Virus record (IMG/VR): IMGVR_UViG_3300036768_001053
Span: 1-29,697 of that record
Strand: one strand, 5' to 3'
Length of the DNA: 29,697 nt
From: a virus
Shown: piece by piece, positions 2,981 through 29,697 of the stretch
Layout of the letters: each line of letters starts with the position of its first letter
Position numbering within the stretch: position 1 is the stretch's first letter
Translations under genes and position numbers: made by a program
The notes under the pieces: model-generated
What the model saw: only the letters and a program-made list of their open reading frames with translations
Database searches by the model: none
Told to the model about the DNA's origin: nothing

Positions 2981-4185
2981 CCTCGGTCGCATCTGCGCTT
3001 CGCAGATTCTTCTCCAGCCGCAGCGCCAGCTTCGGGCAAGCTGACGAGCTGCTGGCGCCGCTGTCGACTGCTGGCGTTGCCGTGAGCTCCGAGACGGCGA
3101 TGCGGTGCGCCGCTGTGCACGCGTGCGTGCGCGTCCTTGCAGACTCGGTCGCGTCTCTGCCCCTCATCGTGTACCGCCGTACGTCTCGTGGGCGCGAGCG
3201 CGCAGCTGATTCGCCGCTGTACTCGTTGCTCCACGATGCTCCTAACCCAGAGCACACGTCCTACGAGTTCCGCGAATTTATCATGGTGTCGCTCCTCCTC
3301 ACTGGTAACGCCTACGCTCTCGTGGAAAGAGACAGAGACGGCACACCGACGGCGCTCTGGCCGATCCCCCCCGACAGAGTCGGGATCGAGGTGGTCAACG
3401 GCCAGCTACGCTACCACGTCATGCAGCAGGACCTCACAACCAGGACCATCCCGCGCTCGGGCATTCTGCATGTGCGTGGCCTTTCTCGCGACGGCATCGT
3501 GGGGATGTCGCCGATCGCCGCAGCGCGTGAGGCGATCGGGCTCGCCCTAGCGCAGGAAGAAGCGGCGGCGCGCTTCTGGCGAGGCGGCGCGGCTCCGCGG
3601 ATCGCGATCCTGATCCCAGGGATTTCCGACCCGGAGACCTGGGACAGGTGGAGGACAGCGATCGAGCGTCACCGCCGCGGTCTCGAGGGCGGGGACAGGA
3701 TTTCAGTGTTCCCCGCAGACTGGAAGGTGGATAAGATCGGAATCTCACCGCAGGACGCGGAGTTCATCGAGTCCCGCAAGTTCCAGGTGCTCGAGATCGC
3801 GCGGCTCTTCCGCGTCCCGCCGCACAAGCTCGGGCTCGTGGAGCGAATGAGCTACTCCTCACTGGAGCAGCAGAGCATCGAATTTCTGACAGACTCGCTA
3901 CTCCCGTGGCTGCGTAGGATCGAATCAGCGCTCAAACGCGACGTAATTCCGCCGTGGGAGCGCGACCTTTATCCGGAGCATTTGGTTGACGCCATCGTTC
4001 GCGGCGACATCAAATCCCGTTACGAGGCATACGCAACAGCCAGGCAATGGGGCTGGATGTCCGCCAACGAAATCCGCGAGCGGGAGAACCTCAACGCGCT
4101 TGCAGGAGAGGCTGGCGACACCTATCTTGTACCATTGAACATGGCGCCTGTTGGCGCCGCTGGAGGCAACAATGCCAGCGATTAG
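2968..4185 (+). CDS. Portal protein, HK97 family
   Basis: A 405-residue portal protein forming the dodecameric DNA gate at one capsid vertex. Family features in order: ACVRVLADSVASLPLIVYRR near the N-terminus, HDAPNPEHTSYEFRE, LLTGNAYALVERD, LWPIPPDRV, and ISPQDAEFIESRKFQVLEIARLFRVPPHKLG in the C-terminal half. Start ATG 2968 is chosen because GAGGAGG at 2951-2957 lies about 10 nt upstream and it overlaps the terminase stop by 13 nt. An open frame extends 20 codons further upstream but has no ribosome site. The gene overlaps the protease gene by 14 nt. Confidence 0.95.
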   Translation: MGVLTSVASALRRFFSSRSASFGQADELLAPLSTAGVAVSSETAMRCAAVHACVRVLADSVASLPLIVYRRTSRGRERAADSPLYSLLHDAPNPEHTSYEFREFIMVSLLLTGNAYALVERDRDGTPTALWPIPPDRVGIEVVNGQLRYHVMQQDLTTRTIPRSGILHVRGLSRDGIVGMSPIAAAREAIGLALAQEEAAARFWRGGAAPRIAILIPGISDPETWDRWRTAIERHRRGLEGGDRISVFPADWKVDKIGISPQDAEFIESRKFQVLEIARLFRVPPHKLGLVERMSYSSLEQQSIEFLTDSLLPWLRRIESALKRDVIPPWERDLYPEHLVDAIVRGDIKSRYEAYATARQWGWMSANEIRERENLNALAGEAGDTYLVPLNMAPVGAAGGNNASD

Positions 4186-21271: not shown

Positions 21272-22003
21272 ATGGCAGACATCGTACTGGCACAAGGGGC
21301 AGAGATCGCTACGGCAGAGGACGCGGCGCGCGTCGCGGAGCTACACCGCGCCCTCCGCGTGGCAACACTCCGCATCACCCGGGCCTCCGACTGGGTGGAC
21401 ATGGATGGCCAGCCATACCTTTCCGCTTCTGGGGCCCAGCGGCTCGCTCCGCTGTTCAGGATCAGGACGCGGGGCGTACGCGTTGAACGGGTCGAGGAAC
21501 CGGGCGGCGGGTACACCGTCGTTGTGACCGGGGAGGCGTGCTCCGAGGTGCTCGACCCTGACGGCTGGCAAGAGGTCGTGGGCACCGCGAGCTCGGAGGA
21601 CCGCTTCTTGACCAAGGGCGGCAGGGTGAAGGCGGCCTACGGCGACGTGTTGAAAAAAGCCATGACCAACTTCACCGCGCGGGCCATCAAGCAGCTGATC
21701 GGCCTCGGCGGCATAACCTGGGAGGACCTCGCCGAGCACGGCATCCGCAGGCAGGATGCGCCCCAGGTGCACTACGCCTCGCCTACGCGCGAGGGGTGGG
21801 TAGCGATCAAGATCCGCTACCAGGACCGCGACCGCCTGCGGGCGATCTGCAGGTCAACAGCCGGCGTGTCCCCGACATGGGACGGTGAGACAAAAACGTG
21901 GAGGGTCCCGGCTGAGGTCGCGTCGCATCAGGAGGTGAAGGCGATGATCGAGGCCGCCTTGGCGGCGAAGAGCAGCGCCGAGCTGCCACTGGAGGAGCCA
22001 TGA
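21272..22003 (+). CDS. Putative ssDNA-binding/annealing-type recombination protein with a HARP-like C-terminus
   Basis: The 243-residue protein starts at ATG 21272 with AAGGAGG a few bases upstream. The N-terminal part carries TRASDWVDMDGQPYLSASGAQRLAPLF. That pattern recurs in phage proteins encoded beside RecB-like exonucleases and is usually annotated hypothetical. The middle has TKGGRVKAAYGDVLKKAMTNF. The C-terminal segment (about 180-215, IKIRYQDRDRLRAICR through SPTWDGETKTWRVP) resembles a HARP-type motif found in SMARCAL1-family annealing helicases. Directly followed (ATGA) by a Cas4-like nuclease, it may act as the annealing partner in a two-component recombination system. The function is inferred from context. 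Confidence 0.7.
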   Translation: MADIVLAQGAEIATAEDAARVAELHRALRVATLRITRASDWVDMDGQPYLSASGAQRLAPLFRIRTRGVRVERVEEPGGGYTVVVTGEACSEVLDPDGWQEVVGTASSEDRFLTKGGRVKAAYGDVLKKAMTNFTARAIKQLIGLGGITWEDLAEHGIRRQDAPQVHYASPTREGWVAIKIRYQDRDRLRAICRSTAGVSPTWDGETKTWRVPAEVASHQEVKAMIEAALAAKSSAELPLEEP

Positions 22004-22962
22004 TCGCGGAGCGTATCGCAGAGCGCATCGTGTCCACCCAGAAGGTCTACAAGCCGGCTGGATTCAGGGCCTCCGAGGCAGGGCATCTGTGTCCGCGCTA
22101 TCACTACCATTCCAGGGTCAACTGGGATGCGCGCCCGACGCCGGACGCTACTCTCGCTCATATCTTCAGGCTTGGCCAAGCCATCGAGGAGTACGTGGTC
22201 GCCTTGCTGCGCGATGCCGGCATCCAGGTGGTGAAGGCGCAGGTGGCGGCCTACGAGCGCGCCAGCGATATCGTTGGGCACGTAGACGGGTTCGCCGTCA
22301 TCGGCGGCGAGGAGGTCCCGATCGAGATCAAGTCCGTGAGCGAATGGACGTGGCAAAACCTGCGCTCGTTCGGGGACATCCTGGCCTCGCAGAAGCCGTA
22401 TGTGCTTCGGTGGGCTGCCCAGCTCCCGCTCTACCTCTACTTGCACGAGCGCCATCGCGGGCTCTGGCTCCTGCTGAACAAGCAGACCGGCGAGCTGCGG
22501 GAGATCGAGGTGCGCCTCGAGGATGCCTGGCCGCTCCTCGAGCGCGTAGACGCGGTGCTCCGAGAGGCACGCGAGGCAATCTCGCGCGGCGAGCCTCCGG
22601 CGCCAAAGCCCGATTCTGTGGCCTTCTGCGGGAGCTGCTGGTGTCGCCAGGTCGGCCTGTGCCCAGGAGCCGCCCCGGCGGAGCCATCTGTCTCCGAGAT
22701 AGCCAGCGATCCTGAGATCGCAGAGGCAGCTGCTACAGTGGCCGAGCTCCGCGACGCCGCCAAACGGTACGAGTCAGCCCAAAAACGCCTCAAGGAGGCG
22801 CTGGCAAAGGTGCAGGTCGCTCCAGGTCAGCGCGTCGAGCTCCTCATCGGCAGTGTGCCGGTCCGCGTTTCGGCATACGAGACCACGCGGTACGACGTGC
22901 CCGAGGAGGTCCGCAGGCAGTACGCCACTCGCGTGGTGCAACAGCGGGTAGAAGTCCTGTAG
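22000..22962 (+). CDS. Cas4/RecB-like PD-(D/E)XK exonuclease with a cysteine cluster
   Basis: The 320-residue protein has a RecB-type nuclease core: GHVDGFAV (H94, D96), VPIEIKSV (E109, K111) and AAQLPLYLYL (Q141, Y145). One cysteine precedes the core (HLCPRY, C31), and a cluster follows it (FCGSCWCRQVGLCPG, C210, C213, C215, C221). This spacing is the mark of iron-sulfur-bound Cas4/AddB-type nucleases. A C-terminal helix-beta tail of ~100 residues is extra. It probably resects DNA ends for recombination-linked replication with the protein just upstream (ATGA overlap, GGAGG 4 nt from the start). Confidence 0.88.
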   Translation: MIAERIAERIVSTQKVYKPAGFRASEAGHLCPRYHYHSRVNWDARPTPDATLAHIFRLGQAIEEYVVALLRDAGIQVVKAQVAAYERASDIVGHVDGFAVIGGEEVPIEIKSVSEWTWQNLRSFGDILASQKPYVLRWAAQLPLYLYLHERHRGLWLLLNKQTGELREIEVRLEDAWPLLERVDAVLREAREAISRGEPPAPKPDSVAFCGSCWCRQVGLCPGAAPAEPSVSEIASDPEIAEAAATVAELRDAAKRYESAQKRLKEALAKVQVAPGQRVELLIGSVPVRVSAYETTRYDVPEEVRRQYATRVVQQRVEVL

Positions 22963-23057: not shown

Positions 23058-24524
23058 GTGTACGCGAAGATCTTCGACACCATCCTTCGCAGCTCGATCT
23101 GGGTCAACCACCCGCCCCACGTGCGTGTTGCCTGGATCGGGCTGCTGCTGCTCGCGAGGCCGGGGAGACTTCCGGACGGGCGCAGGGTCGGCATCGTGCA
23201 GGGGACGCGAGCAGGGCTCGCGAGGGCGCTCTCCCTCGAGCTGGAGCAGTTCGAGGAGGCCTTGGAGGTCCTGATGGCGCCGGACCCGGACTCCACCTCG
23301 ACCGAGTTCGAGGGAAGGAGGATCATCGAGCTGAAGCCGAACCGGTGGGCCGTGGTGAACTACTCCCGCTACCAGCGGATGCGTGACGAGGACAACCGGC
23401 GGATCCAGTCCCGCGAGCTCATGCGCGAGCTTCGCGAGGCGAGGAGGGGTGGCGGTGCTGCTGCTGGTTCGGGCAGCTCCTGGAGAAGCGCAGATGTGGG
23501 GACAAGGTTAGATGGGTCAACGACTTCAGCCAGAAATGCTAACAATGCTAACAGTGCTAACACTTGGCTCGCGAATGACCTAAAGCTAGCCGAGTCAACA
23601 ACTTCAGCCAGATGTGCTAACAATGCTAACATTGCTAACGCAGACGGCGGAAAAAGGCTAAGTGTAGACAGGTCACTAAGTTCAGCCAGAAATGCTAACA
23701 ATGCTAACAATGCTAACATCGGTAGCAGTGCTAACAAGGTGGCGGGTGACCGAAACCCGGACGCTGAGAGTGCCATTTTGGCACGCTCGGGAGGCTCGGC
23801 TGGTGCCATTTTGGCACCTCCAGCCGGCTCGAAAGGCGCTGGACCCGAGTTTTCCACAGGTTTTCCACAGGACACGGTCCTGAATGAGCAAGTCGTTGAC
23901 TGCGTAGGGGATGTTCCGACTTTTTCCACAGCTTTTCCACAGGTTTTCCACAGCTTTTCCACAACTTTTCCACAGCCTCCGAACTCGCCAGCATCGAGCA
24001 GACCGGCCCGGTTGCACAAAAACGAGTGCAGCGCCTACTACTACGATAAAGAGAGTACAGAGATCTCTCAGGAGTCTATAGTCGTGGGGGATATGGAGGA
24101 TAGGGGGGGATGCAAGGGGGGGAAAGGGGGAAAAGGGGTAGTCACATATCCTGCATCTCAGCCGAAGCACACGAAGCCCAAGAGGTCGACCGCCTCCTCG
24201 ATCTGGGTGCTGCAGCCGGGCGAGGAGCCCGTCATGAACTTCCCGTGCGAAGGAGAGGCCGACACCTGGGCCCTTTCCCCTTCAGGTTTTCGCTGGCTCC
24301 AGGAGCACTACCGCACCGTGGACGTTGAGGCGGAGCTCAGGTCCGCAAAGGCGTGGTTAGTAGGCAACCCTGGCCGGCTCAAGACCGCGCGCGGGATGCC
24401 GCGGTTCCTGGTCAACTGGATGGAGAAGGCTGCCCGCGACAGGCGCGGCTACCGGCGCCAGCCTGACCTGCTCGCGGGCGTGGAGGACCTGCTCAAGGGG
24501 GCAGGGGAAGGAGGTGACGAGTGA
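23058..24524 (+). CDS. Replication initiator (lambda O-like) carrying an internal origin
   Basis: The 488-residue protein starts at GTG 23058 with GGAGG 6 nt upstream. Residues 1-110 look like a winged-helix initiator domain (MYAKIFDTILRSSIWVNHPPHVRVAWIG split over two helices, IIELKPNRWAVVNYSRYQ). The C-terminal 90 residues (SGFRWLQEHYRTV, AKAWLVGNPGRLKTARGMPRFLVNWMEKA) match the end of many phage primosomal/replication proteins that contact the helicase. Between them (about 150-370) is low-complexity sequence: three NANNAN-type repeats spaced by 26 residues, FSTxFPQ repeats, and a GGKGGKG stretch. This part appears shaped by DNA-level origin elements. As in lambda O, the protein probably binds iterons within its own gene. 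Confidence 0.85.
   Translation: MYAKIFDTILRSSIWVNHPPHVRVAWIGLLLLARPGRLPDGRRVGIVQGTRAGLARALSLELEQFEEALEVLMAPDPDSTSTEFEGRRIIELKPNRWAVVNYSRYQRMRDEDNRRIQSRELMRELREARRGGGAAAGSGSSWRSADVGTRLDGSTTSARNANNANSANTWLANDLKLAESTTSARCANNANIANADGGKRLSVDRSLSSARNANNANNANIGSSANKVAGDRNPDAESAILARSGGSAGAILAPPAGSKGAGPEFSTGFPQDTVLNEQVVDCVGDVPTFSTAFPQVFHSFSTTFPQPPNSPASSRPARLHKNECSAYYYDKESTEISQESIVVGDMEDRGGCKGGKGGKGVVTYPASQPKHTKPKRSTASSIWVLQPGEEPVMNFPCEGEADTWALSPSGFRWLQEHYRTVDVEAELRSAKAWLVGNPGRLKTARGMPRFLVNWMEKAARDRRGYRRQPDLLAGVEDLLKGAGEGGDE
23516..23749. repeat. Three 78-bp direct repeats, each with an iteron triplet
   Basis: The marker GTCAAC/GTCAC begins at 23516, 23594 and 23672, exactly 78 bp apart. TTCAGCCAGA follows each, then three iterons with the core GCTAAC at 9-bp spacing. 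The core positions are 23538, 23547, 23556; 23616, 23625, 23634; 23694, 23703, 23712; and a tenth at 23730. Consensus of the 9-bp unit is AATGCTAAC. Both periods are multiples of three, so the repeats preserve the reading frame and code for NAN tripeptides. The third unit diverges after its iterons. Confidence 0.95.
23770..23817. repeat. Two identical 15-bp palindromes 33 bp apart
   Basis: GTGCCATTTTGGCAC occurs at 23770-23784 and 23803-23817. Each is a 6-bp inverted repeat around TTT; the second has one extra flanking G-C pair. The spacing of 33 bp is close to three helical turns, so both sites face the same side of the DNA. They lie between the iterons and the DnaA-like boxes and look like binding sites for a dimeric protein, perhaps the helix-turn-helix protein encoded at 21037 or a host factor. 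Confidence 0.88.
23850..23974 (+). repeat. Seven DnaA-box-like TTTTCCACA sites at 11-bp spacing
   Basis: TTTTCCACA starts at 23850 and 23861, and again at 23922, 23933, 23944, 23955 and 23966. All have the same orientation, and every neighbour within a group is exactly 11 bp away. The sequence fits the broad DnaA consensus TTWTNCACA. Since 11 is not a multiple of 3, each copy is read in a different codon phase, so the repetition is maintained for the DNA and not the protein. It probably loads host DnaA cooperatively. Confidence 0.9.
24103..24138 (+). other. G-quadruplex motif next to the origin
   Basis: Runs of 7, 7, 5 and 4 G are separated by loops of 6, 3 (AAA) and 4 (AAAA) nt, with a further G5 at 24086-24090. 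This fulfils the strict four-tract quadruplex pattern on the plus strand. It encodes a Gly/Lys-rich linker (GCKGGKGGKG) in the initiator. Being just beyond the DnaA-like boxes it may influence unwinding, primer synthesis or fork stalling. Confidence 0.75.
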
Positions 24525-25030
24525 CGTTCGAGGAGTTCCGGTCGTGGTTCGGCGAATACTGCCAGCTCAGCCCGCGAACGCCAGCCTGGATGCGAGAGGC
24601 AGCGCAGCGGGCAAGCGAGGCCGGCGTAGCGCTCACGCCGGACCAGGTGGTGCGAGGCTGGTACCGCTCGCTCGAGCGGCGGCCGGCATGGGCCGTCCGC
24701 AAGGCCACCACGCGCCTCGCCGAGTCCGGGGCGCTGTCACGGCTGCACCCCGAGCAGCACCTTGGCGCCATCATCTCGGAGGCGGTCGAGATCGAGCGGA
24801 ACGAGGGGTTCGGCCGTGCTGACAACCCGGGGTGGGACGAGTACTCCTGCGACATCTGCGGCGGGGTCGGGATGGTGGTGATCGAGACGCCCTACCCGGA
24901 CGGGCGGCCGCACGAATCCACGGTTGCCTGCATCTGCGAGCGCGGAGCGCGGCCACCAGTTCGCGGGATGCGAAGGCTTCGGCCTGGCGACGTGTTTGCT
25001 GGGACCGGGGGAAGGAGGTTCGAGGGATGA
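24521..25030 (+). CDS. Replication-region protein with a zinc-binding motif (169 aa)
   Basis: This gene follows the initiator with a 4-nt overlap (GTG 24521, GGAGG 6 nt upstream), the place of a helicase-loader gene in lambda-like phages. The N-terminal half is helical (MTFEEFRSWFGEYCQLSP, LTPDQVVRGWYRSLERRPAWAV). The second half has CDICGGVGMVVIETPYPDG and then ACICERG, a CxxC...CxC arrangement likely to bind zinc. No P-loop is present, so it is not a DnaC-type ATPase. A helicase-loading adaptor or primosome link with the RepA-like protein is plausible, but I recognise no family. Confidence 0.7.
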   Translation: MTFEEFRSWFGEYCQLSPRTPAWMREAAQRASEAGVALTPDQVVRGWYRSLERRPAWAVRKATTRLAESGALSRLHPEQHLGAIISEAVEIERNEGFGRADNPGWDEYSCDICGGVGMVVIETPYPDGRPHESTVACICERGARPPVRGMRRLRPGDVFAGTGGRRFEG

Positions 25031-28640: not shown

Positions 28641-29697
28641 ATGCTAGTACCCATCGAACTCTCTGAGGAGTTGCCGGCGATTCAGTGGCATATTCCAGGG
28701 CTCATCCCTGGTGGGTACATCACCACTGTCTACTCCCAGCCCGGGGTTTCGAAGACATGCATCGGCGCCTTCCTGGCCGTCCAGACGGCACGAAAGCATG
28801 GGAGCTTCGCTGGATACCAGGTCCGACACGGCAGGGCAGTGGTCATTGACGCCGATGATGGCAGCGGGATCGGTTATACGCTTTGGCTAAATCGCTTCAT
28901 GAGGGTGTACAAGGACGCTGACCGTCGCCTCATCTCGCTTTACTCGGTGGACGTGGATGGCCTGACCAGCGAAGACATCGAGCTGCTGGGGCAAGATCTG
29001 CGACGCGACCCGCCGGCCCTGGTTGTGCTGGATAGCTTCTCGTCTGCGTTCCCCTCGCTTGCCACACACATCCCGCACAAGGTCCACGCTTGCCTGAGAA
29101 CAATAGGCATGATCGCAAAGGAGAGTGGTGCTGCCATCGTGGTAGTAGACAGCGCCGGAAAACTTGTCACAGGGCAGAGCATCGCGTCGAAGGGTCCGCT
29201 TGGCACCGTGGCGAAGCTCATTCTCCCCCGGGCAGCGTTCGCGCTGGAGCGGGTGCCCCCTGCCGATGTGGACGGGCGGGACGTGCTCAAGCTCACGTGC
29301 ACCAAGCAGAGCTTTGGACCGGTGCCTCCTGCCCTGTGGCTGGAGTTGGTGAGACGCGGAGACGATGCGTTCGACATCGAGGTGGTGGAAGGGCAGTCCG
29401 CGATCCAGCGCGATGCGGACCACGTCCCGCGGTTCTTCGAGCTTCTGGGTGAGCTCTTGGGTTCCGGGCAGGCGCACTTGCTCTCCCGGGAGCACCCCCA
29501 GCAGCCACCAGAGCACCCGGAGCGCTGGGGCTGGAAGCCTGACGCCGCAGGAAGCCTCAGGCCGGGCGGGCCGCACATCGGCTGGGTGGACCGCACCTTC
29601 GCTTACCTGCTCCCCACCGCCACGTATGCAGCCCTGTGGAGACACGCCAGCACCGTCGGCTTGCCGCTTCCCTCGGAACGCGTGCTTTGGAAGCGGC
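28641..29697 (+). CDS. RepA-like replicative ATPase/helicase, N-terminal part (continues at base 1)
   Basis: The start is ATG 28641 with GGGAGG 6-7 nt upstream. The full protein across the join is 561 residues. The core resembles the RecA-fold AAA_25/RepA family of hexameric helicases. A P-loop-like SQPGVSKT lies at residues 32-39, IDADDG at 69-74, a Walker B strand PALVVLDS ends at D131, and VVVDSAGK at 167-174 occupies the place of the family's usual HH-GK sensor. The first and last glycines of the P-loop consensus GxxxxGKT are replaced by Ser, and the sensor histidines by Asp-Ser, although Lys38-Thr39 remain. The likely role is DNA unwinding or helicase/primase recruitment for phage replication, working with the initiator at 23058. 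The altered motifs leave ATPase activity unproven. Confidence 0.82.
   Translation, partial: MLVPIELSEELPAIQWHIPGLIPGGYITTVYSQPGVSKTCIGAFLAVQTARKHGSFAGYQVRHGRAVVIDADDGSGIGYTLWLNRFMRVYKDADRRLISLYSVDVDGLTSEDIELLGQDLRRDPPALVVLDSFSSAFPSLATHIPHKVHACLRTIGMIAKESGAAIVVVDSAGKLVTGQSIASKGPLGTVAKLILPRAAFALERVPPADVDGRDVLKLTCTKQSFGPVPPALWLELVRRGDDAFDIEVVEGQSAIQRDADHVPRFFELLGELLGSGQAHLLSREHPQQPPEHPERWGWKPDAAGSLRPGGPHIGWVDRTFAYLLPTATYAALWRHASTVGLPLPSERVLWKR
29610..29697. repeat. Terminal direct repeat, right copy
   Basis: Exact copy of bases 1-88. Merging the copies joins the reading frame that begins at 28641 to the one that ends at 717 without a stop or a frame change. Confidence 0.95.

Follow-up and report, generated by a model that had tools for sequence, protein, structure and literature searches.

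A phased DnaA-box array within a phage initiator gene suggests replication initiation by a phage initiator together with host DnaA

Why does a phage gene carry, inside its coding sequence, seven exact copies of TTTTCCACA, an established DnaA box of cyanobacteria (PMC4674748, PMC6323995)? The gene lies in IMG/VR record IMGVR_UViG_3300036768_001053, the whole of which (29,697 bp) is the window analyzed here. The 29.7-kb genome is that of a tailed phage, with terminase, capsid, and tape-measure genes recognized in it, and an 88-bp direct terminal repeat (1-88 and 29610-29697) indicates that it is probably complete. In the terminase-based host prediction all matches fell below 50% identity and were spread over many hosts, and no host is claimed. 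A close terminase relative (L023, 91%), on an 11-kb contig, has one TTCTCCACA and lacks the array. The anatomy of the locus suggests that this virus may start copying its DNA with both an initiator of its own and the DnaA of its host.

Seven boxes in three reading frames

The first-pass annotation had described seven DnaA-like boxes in one orientation between 23850 and 23974, spaced exactly 11 bp apart within two groups and changing reading frame from copy to copy, and our recount agreed on each point. Exact TTTTCCACA occurred seven times, on the + strand only, with starts at 23850 and 23861 (boxes 1-2, 23850-23869) and at 23922, 23933, 23944, 23955, and 23966 (boxes 3-7, 23922-23974). The start-to-start distance was 11 bp throughout both groups, leaving 2-bp spacers, while 61 bp separated the starts of boxes 2 and 3. 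Relative to the 488-aa open reading frame that contains them, the first group occupies frames 0,2 and the second frames 0,2,1,0,2; all three frames are used, and the encoded peptides are FST, FPQ, and FHS. Elsewhere in the 29,697-bp record there was no further exact copy, and when up to one mismatch was allowed the record held 10 sites, against 2.07 expected, a number reached in 0 of 100 shuffles.

The 9-mer cores of the seven boxes were invariant, and all four deviations between units fell in the spacers (GG, GG, GC, GG, GC, AC, and GC; P = 7e-4). Among 200,000 synonymous recodings made with the phage codon usage, the maximum was four TTTTCCACA boxes, compared to the seven that are present. 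Because the cores are invariant and recodings never exceeded four boxes, it is the DNA itself that has been kept, beyond the peptide that it encodes, and selection on DNA within the initiator gene is well supported. An explanation of the array as a protein repeat was excluded by the frame changes and the synonymous recoding. The earlier argument for selection is upheld by the recodings. As a sign of DnaA, the pitch on its own would fit binding sites of the initiator equally well.

All seven copies fit the consensus TTA/TTNCACA and equal the cyanobacterial box. Their arrangement is also that of oriC-type arrays, with one orientation, 2-bp spacing, and sites that share one face of the helix.

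The initiator gene and the elements in its linker

The gene that contains the array (23058-24524, + strand) encodes 488 aa comprising a winged helix, a linker of about 246 aa, and a C-terminal replication-protein domain. In the AF2 model of the first 138 residues (23058-23471; pLDDT 92, from a 15-sequence alignment), a winged helix is followed by a tail that is helical and basic, and the model resembled CRP-type winged helices, with a Z score of 8.7 over 68-73 residues. The names replisome organizer and replication initiator appeared among the weaker viral matches of this domain; tblastn of the N-terminal part against phages gave no match worth keeping. The C-terminal domain (24198-24521) was modeled with AF2 at a pLDDT of 86.7. 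By tblastn, the last 108 residues matched the replisome organizer of a Ruminococcus phage as well as initiation proteins from Vibrio phage, and the C-terminal part also matched an Acidovorax plasmid protein adjoining an ATP-binding protein and a DnaB-like helicase. PHROG 1032, a replication initiation protein, was matched by 10 of 31 aligned C-terminal relatives; the window protein itself had no PHROG match, either at full length (E up to 0.1) or with its C-terminal domain (E up to 0.001). Pfam recovered neither the N-terminal nor the C-terminal domain, Foldseek with the C-terminal model returned no solved structure, and searches of viral and genome collections with the full-length protein returned no close relative. 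Two full-length relatives (L232 and L273) resembled it at both ends. Given the winged helix, the C-terminal matches, and these both-end relatives, the 488-aa protein is most likely a phage initiator. Its layout is that of initiators with an origin inside their gene, in that N-terminal DNA-binding and C-terminal replication domains flank a repeat-bearing linker; a linker between two folded domains tolerates change in protein sequence, which is how an origin can sit within the gene.

Neither Pfam nor PHROG gave a match for the product of the next gene (24521-25030, + strand, 169 aa), a helicase loader candidate by position only. Among the ORFs searched we recognized no helicase, loader, or primase, which would make DnaA useful for loading, although a loader may have escaped recognition, the 24521-25030 gene being among the candidates. 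Upstream of the initiator gene, at 22000-22962, lies a gene for a Cas4-domain/RecE-like exonuclease (PHROG 1990, E 4e-28).

The linker holds, in order, TGCTAACA repeats, two GTGCCATTTTGGCAC palindromes, the boxes in groups of two and five, the least stable stretch, and a G-tract, altogether spanning about 635 bp. The candidate initiator iterons (23504-23736, + strand) consist of three 59-nt repeats at a 78-bp pitch containing nine exact TGCTAACA, all nine in one codon frame; their 9-bp in-frame pitch is unusual for phased iterons. The palindrome GTGCCATTTTGGCAC stands at 23770-23784 and again at 23803-23817, 33 bp from the first copy, and a related CCTCCAAAATGGAGG was observed within the initiator gene of another phage (L313, about 3787-3803). 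A nearest-neighbor stability scan of the whole genome placed both its least stable 30 bp and its least stable 50 bp in 24035-24085, a candidate unwinding element that begins about 60-61 bp past the last box. This stretch starts with CTACTACTA, which a check for three or more DnaA-trios (YTW on this strand), as in the basal unwinding system of a DnaA box with an adjoining trio, located at 24035, 60 bp past the last box and thus not adjacent to it; three trios can arise by chance. Directly behind it, the G-tract (24086-24138, + strand) is the only tract in the genome with at least four closely spaced runs of at least four G. Runs of at least five G behind repeats, often split by TAT or TA, were also observed in several relatives, among them L261, L291, L347, and L356 (8 of 107 genes against 1.0 expected), and, on the opposite strand, in L015 (about 3930-3950). 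Judged by its elements, which are the set expected of an origin, the linker looks like a full origin.

Candidate binding proteins for the phased repeats

To place the linker in its family, we examined a de-duplicated set of 92 initiator genes that have this C-terminal domain in common (L103-L105, L232-L341, and the window gene). Out-of-frame repeats at shifts of 10, 11, 20, and 22 bp occurred in 32, 43, 17, and 29 of these genes, respectively, where codon shuffles led us to expect about 3; for other out-of-frame shifts the counts ranged from 2 to 11 genes. Helically phased repeats are therefore common in the linkers of this family, which shows that its coding sequence has been shaped by the helical phasing of DNA sites. 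The repeat unit varied from phage to phage and included TGTCAACCA, GTAACG, GTCACG, and TGTCCGCC, among others. In the sisters with a winged helix, the repeats stood directly behind that domain and were mostly GTAACG, GTTACA, or GTCACG units; in the window this position is occupied by TGCTAACA, which has a TAAC core in common with the sisters' units, and TTTTCCACA follows further on. None of the surveyed relatives had a DnaA-box array in its own gene. Since 11-bp out-of-frame repeats are so frequent in the family, a rigid pitch alone cannot identify DnaA sites.

Arrays of TTTTCCACA were also found well beyond this family. IMG/VR contained at least 120 triple arrays, against 12 for the reversed motif, making them at least tenfold commoner. 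Among the matches listed, their pitch peaked at 11, 12, 21, and 22 bp, 90 of 110 unique arrays lay outside ORFs of at least 130 aa, and the commonest one-mismatch neighbors were TTATCCACA (17) and TTGTCCACA (8), both DnaA-box forms. Such arrays recurred in unrelated viral contigs (L006-L022, L106-L219), and mixed arrays of TTTTCCACA and TTATCCACA were present in L007, L012, L014, L018, and L022. One viral contig with a relative of the C-terminal domain (L015) had four boxes at an 11-bp pitch and an identical 15-bp GTGCCATTTTGGCAC (3866-3880) in one region, roughly 1.2-1.6 kb from the gene for that relative; the palindrome match was noticed afterwards and so carries limited weight. In L129, L133, and L194, TTTTCCACA was observed at a 15-bp in-frame pitch (VDFPQ repeats) within another protein family with a DNA-binding look. 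A search of IMG/VR with the 17-mer TGCTAACAATGCTAACA led chiefly to genes for structural proteins, and no hit was accompanied by an initiator relative. Short-query BLAST of the array gave no hits among plasmids and phages, a result that carries no weight because of the low-complexity filter.

Among 386 chromosomes (246 Planctomycetota, 81 Bacillota, and 59 Desulfobacterota), none had perfect three-box tandems with 2-bp spacers, the motif sought being TTTTCCACA alone in Planctomycetota and TTWTCCACA in the other two phyla. This is accordingly not the usual chromosomal arrangement of DnaA boxes there, and full-consensus tandems look like more of a phage than a chromosome trait, at least in these three phyla.

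These surveys bear on who binds the boxes. The array could consist of the initiator's own iterons, bound by the winged helix, with a likeness to DnaA boxes that is accidental or reflects convergence toward sites like those of the host, and with TGCTAACA as a protein-level repeat or an accessory site. Such an origin of the boxes would accord with the family, in which the linkers, as counted above, typically have repeats out of frame at shifts of 10, 11, 20, and 22 bp and the unit sequence changes between phages; furthermore, TTTCCACAG equals the TGTCCGCCG unit of L356 at six of nine positions. Nevertheless, we consider it unlikely. A repeat unit of arbitrary sequence should seldom coincide with a DnaA box at all nine bases; TGCTAACA, with its TAAC core, occupies the position just behind the winged helix where iterons are expected, which makes TTTTCCACA an extra module; and TTTTCCACA arrays recur in phages that lack the initiator and have TTATCCACA and TTGTCCACA as their commonest near-variants among the matches listed. 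We prefer DnaA as the ligand for these reasons, and likewise because TTTTCCACA is an established DnaA box set at an oriC-like 2-bp, same-direction spacing, because the IMG/VR arrays are in excess, peak at particular pitches, lie mostly outside long ORFs, and neighbor DnaA-box forms, and because of the four boxes and identical palindrome of L015.

Binding by DnaA could also serve an end other than firing the phage origin. With seven boxes of full consensus on each copy, a multicopy phage genome could take up many DnaA molecules, and as a datA-like decoy the boxes might titrate host DnaA, delaying host replication or regulating transcription, a role that sequence alone does not separate from that of an origin. 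The boxes, however, have the iterons on one side and the genome's least stable stretch on the other, within the initiator gene, a position that befits an origin module, and we regard titration as quite improbable. Least credible of all is that tandem duplication within a disordered linker left the array behind, with no function as DNA. Slippage does make tandem repeats, and the linker is variable across the family, but each single 11-bp step shifts the frame, variation is confined to the spacers and spares the cores, two separate groups agree in unit and pitch, and the recodings stayed short of the actual box count.

The hybrid origin proposed in the first-pass annotation, with the phage initiator and host DnaA acting together, remains the best-supported reading, owing to the TGCTAACA class of repeats, the unstable stretch, the lack of a recognized loader, and the arrays elsewhere; what did not stand is the pitch as a DnaA-specific sign, since sisters have 10-11-bp iterons of their own. 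We think it probable that the linker is the phage origin. The winged helix of the initiator would bind the TGCTAACA iterons, host DnaA would form a filament on the seven TTTTCCACA boxes, in one direction and on one face of the helix, the two proteins would jointly open the destabilized 24035-24085, and the opened origin would receive host DnaB. Speaking against a hybrid origin are the family-wide 11-bp units that are not DnaA boxes, the in-frame pitch of TGCTAACA, the relatives without a DnaA-box array, and the absence of tandems from the sampled chromosomes. More tentatively, and with doubt outweighing confidence, helically phased full-consensus DnaA-box tandems might be a general phage device, widespread among unrelated viral genomes and in this one worked into the initiator's coding sequence. 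A phage that has no helicase loader of its own would use it to recruit the DnaA of its host, and by way of DnaA also DnaB, for firing its origin.

An origin within an initiator gene is already known from lambda, and iterons combined with DnaA boxes are known from plasmids (PMC4980987). We did not find a description of the two united within the coding sequence of a phage, with seven boxes that have the full consensus and the oriC spacing; the literature searched, with incomplete coverage, contained no account of DnaA-box arrays in phage initiator genes. If the hybrid origin is real, dependence of phage replication on host DnaA would be a testable and perhaps common trait, given the phased arrays in many uncultured phages.

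Comparison with known origins

In the lambda O-type origin, the central part of the initiator gene, which joins the N-terminal DNA-binding domain to the C-terminal part, contains direct repeats, and past these comes a stretch that melts easily. The window resembles it in both respects and departs from it by adding a second repeat class, the seven DnaA-like boxes. The textbook lambda origin has O iterons and is not known to include such a DnaA-box array; plasmid origins often need DnaA boxes. With the replisome organizers and PHROG 1032 proteins the window has in common the C-terminal domain and the phased linker repeats, whereas its linker is much longer (246 aa) and the surveyed relatives have no DnaA-box array in the gene.

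The arrays of the Escherichia coli oriC contain same-direction sites exactly 2 bp apart on one helix face (PMC4451416), and the boxes in the window match them in direction, spacer length, and helix face. The oriC sites are low-affinity and divergent, in contrast to the seven full TTTTCCACA copies in coding sequence here. In the plasmid origins of RK2, P1, F, and pSC101, Rep iterons and DnaA boxes accompany a region that melts easily, and box orientation is critical in RK2 (PMC4980987). In sequence anatomy the window parallels them, with candidate iterons, DnaA-like boxes, and an easily melted region. It differs in belonging to a phage, in having its origin in coding sequence, and in its seven identical boxes, compared to four in RK2, and its initiator may not belong to a plasmid Rep family. 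Our best reading is of a lambda-O-type origin within its own gene, to which a DnaA-box module that would recruit host DnaA has been added, as in iteron plasmids. The first-pass annotation had measured the array against lambda, a comparison that holds for the origin-in-gene half; for the whole, the iteron plasmids RK2, P1, and F are the closer functional precedent.
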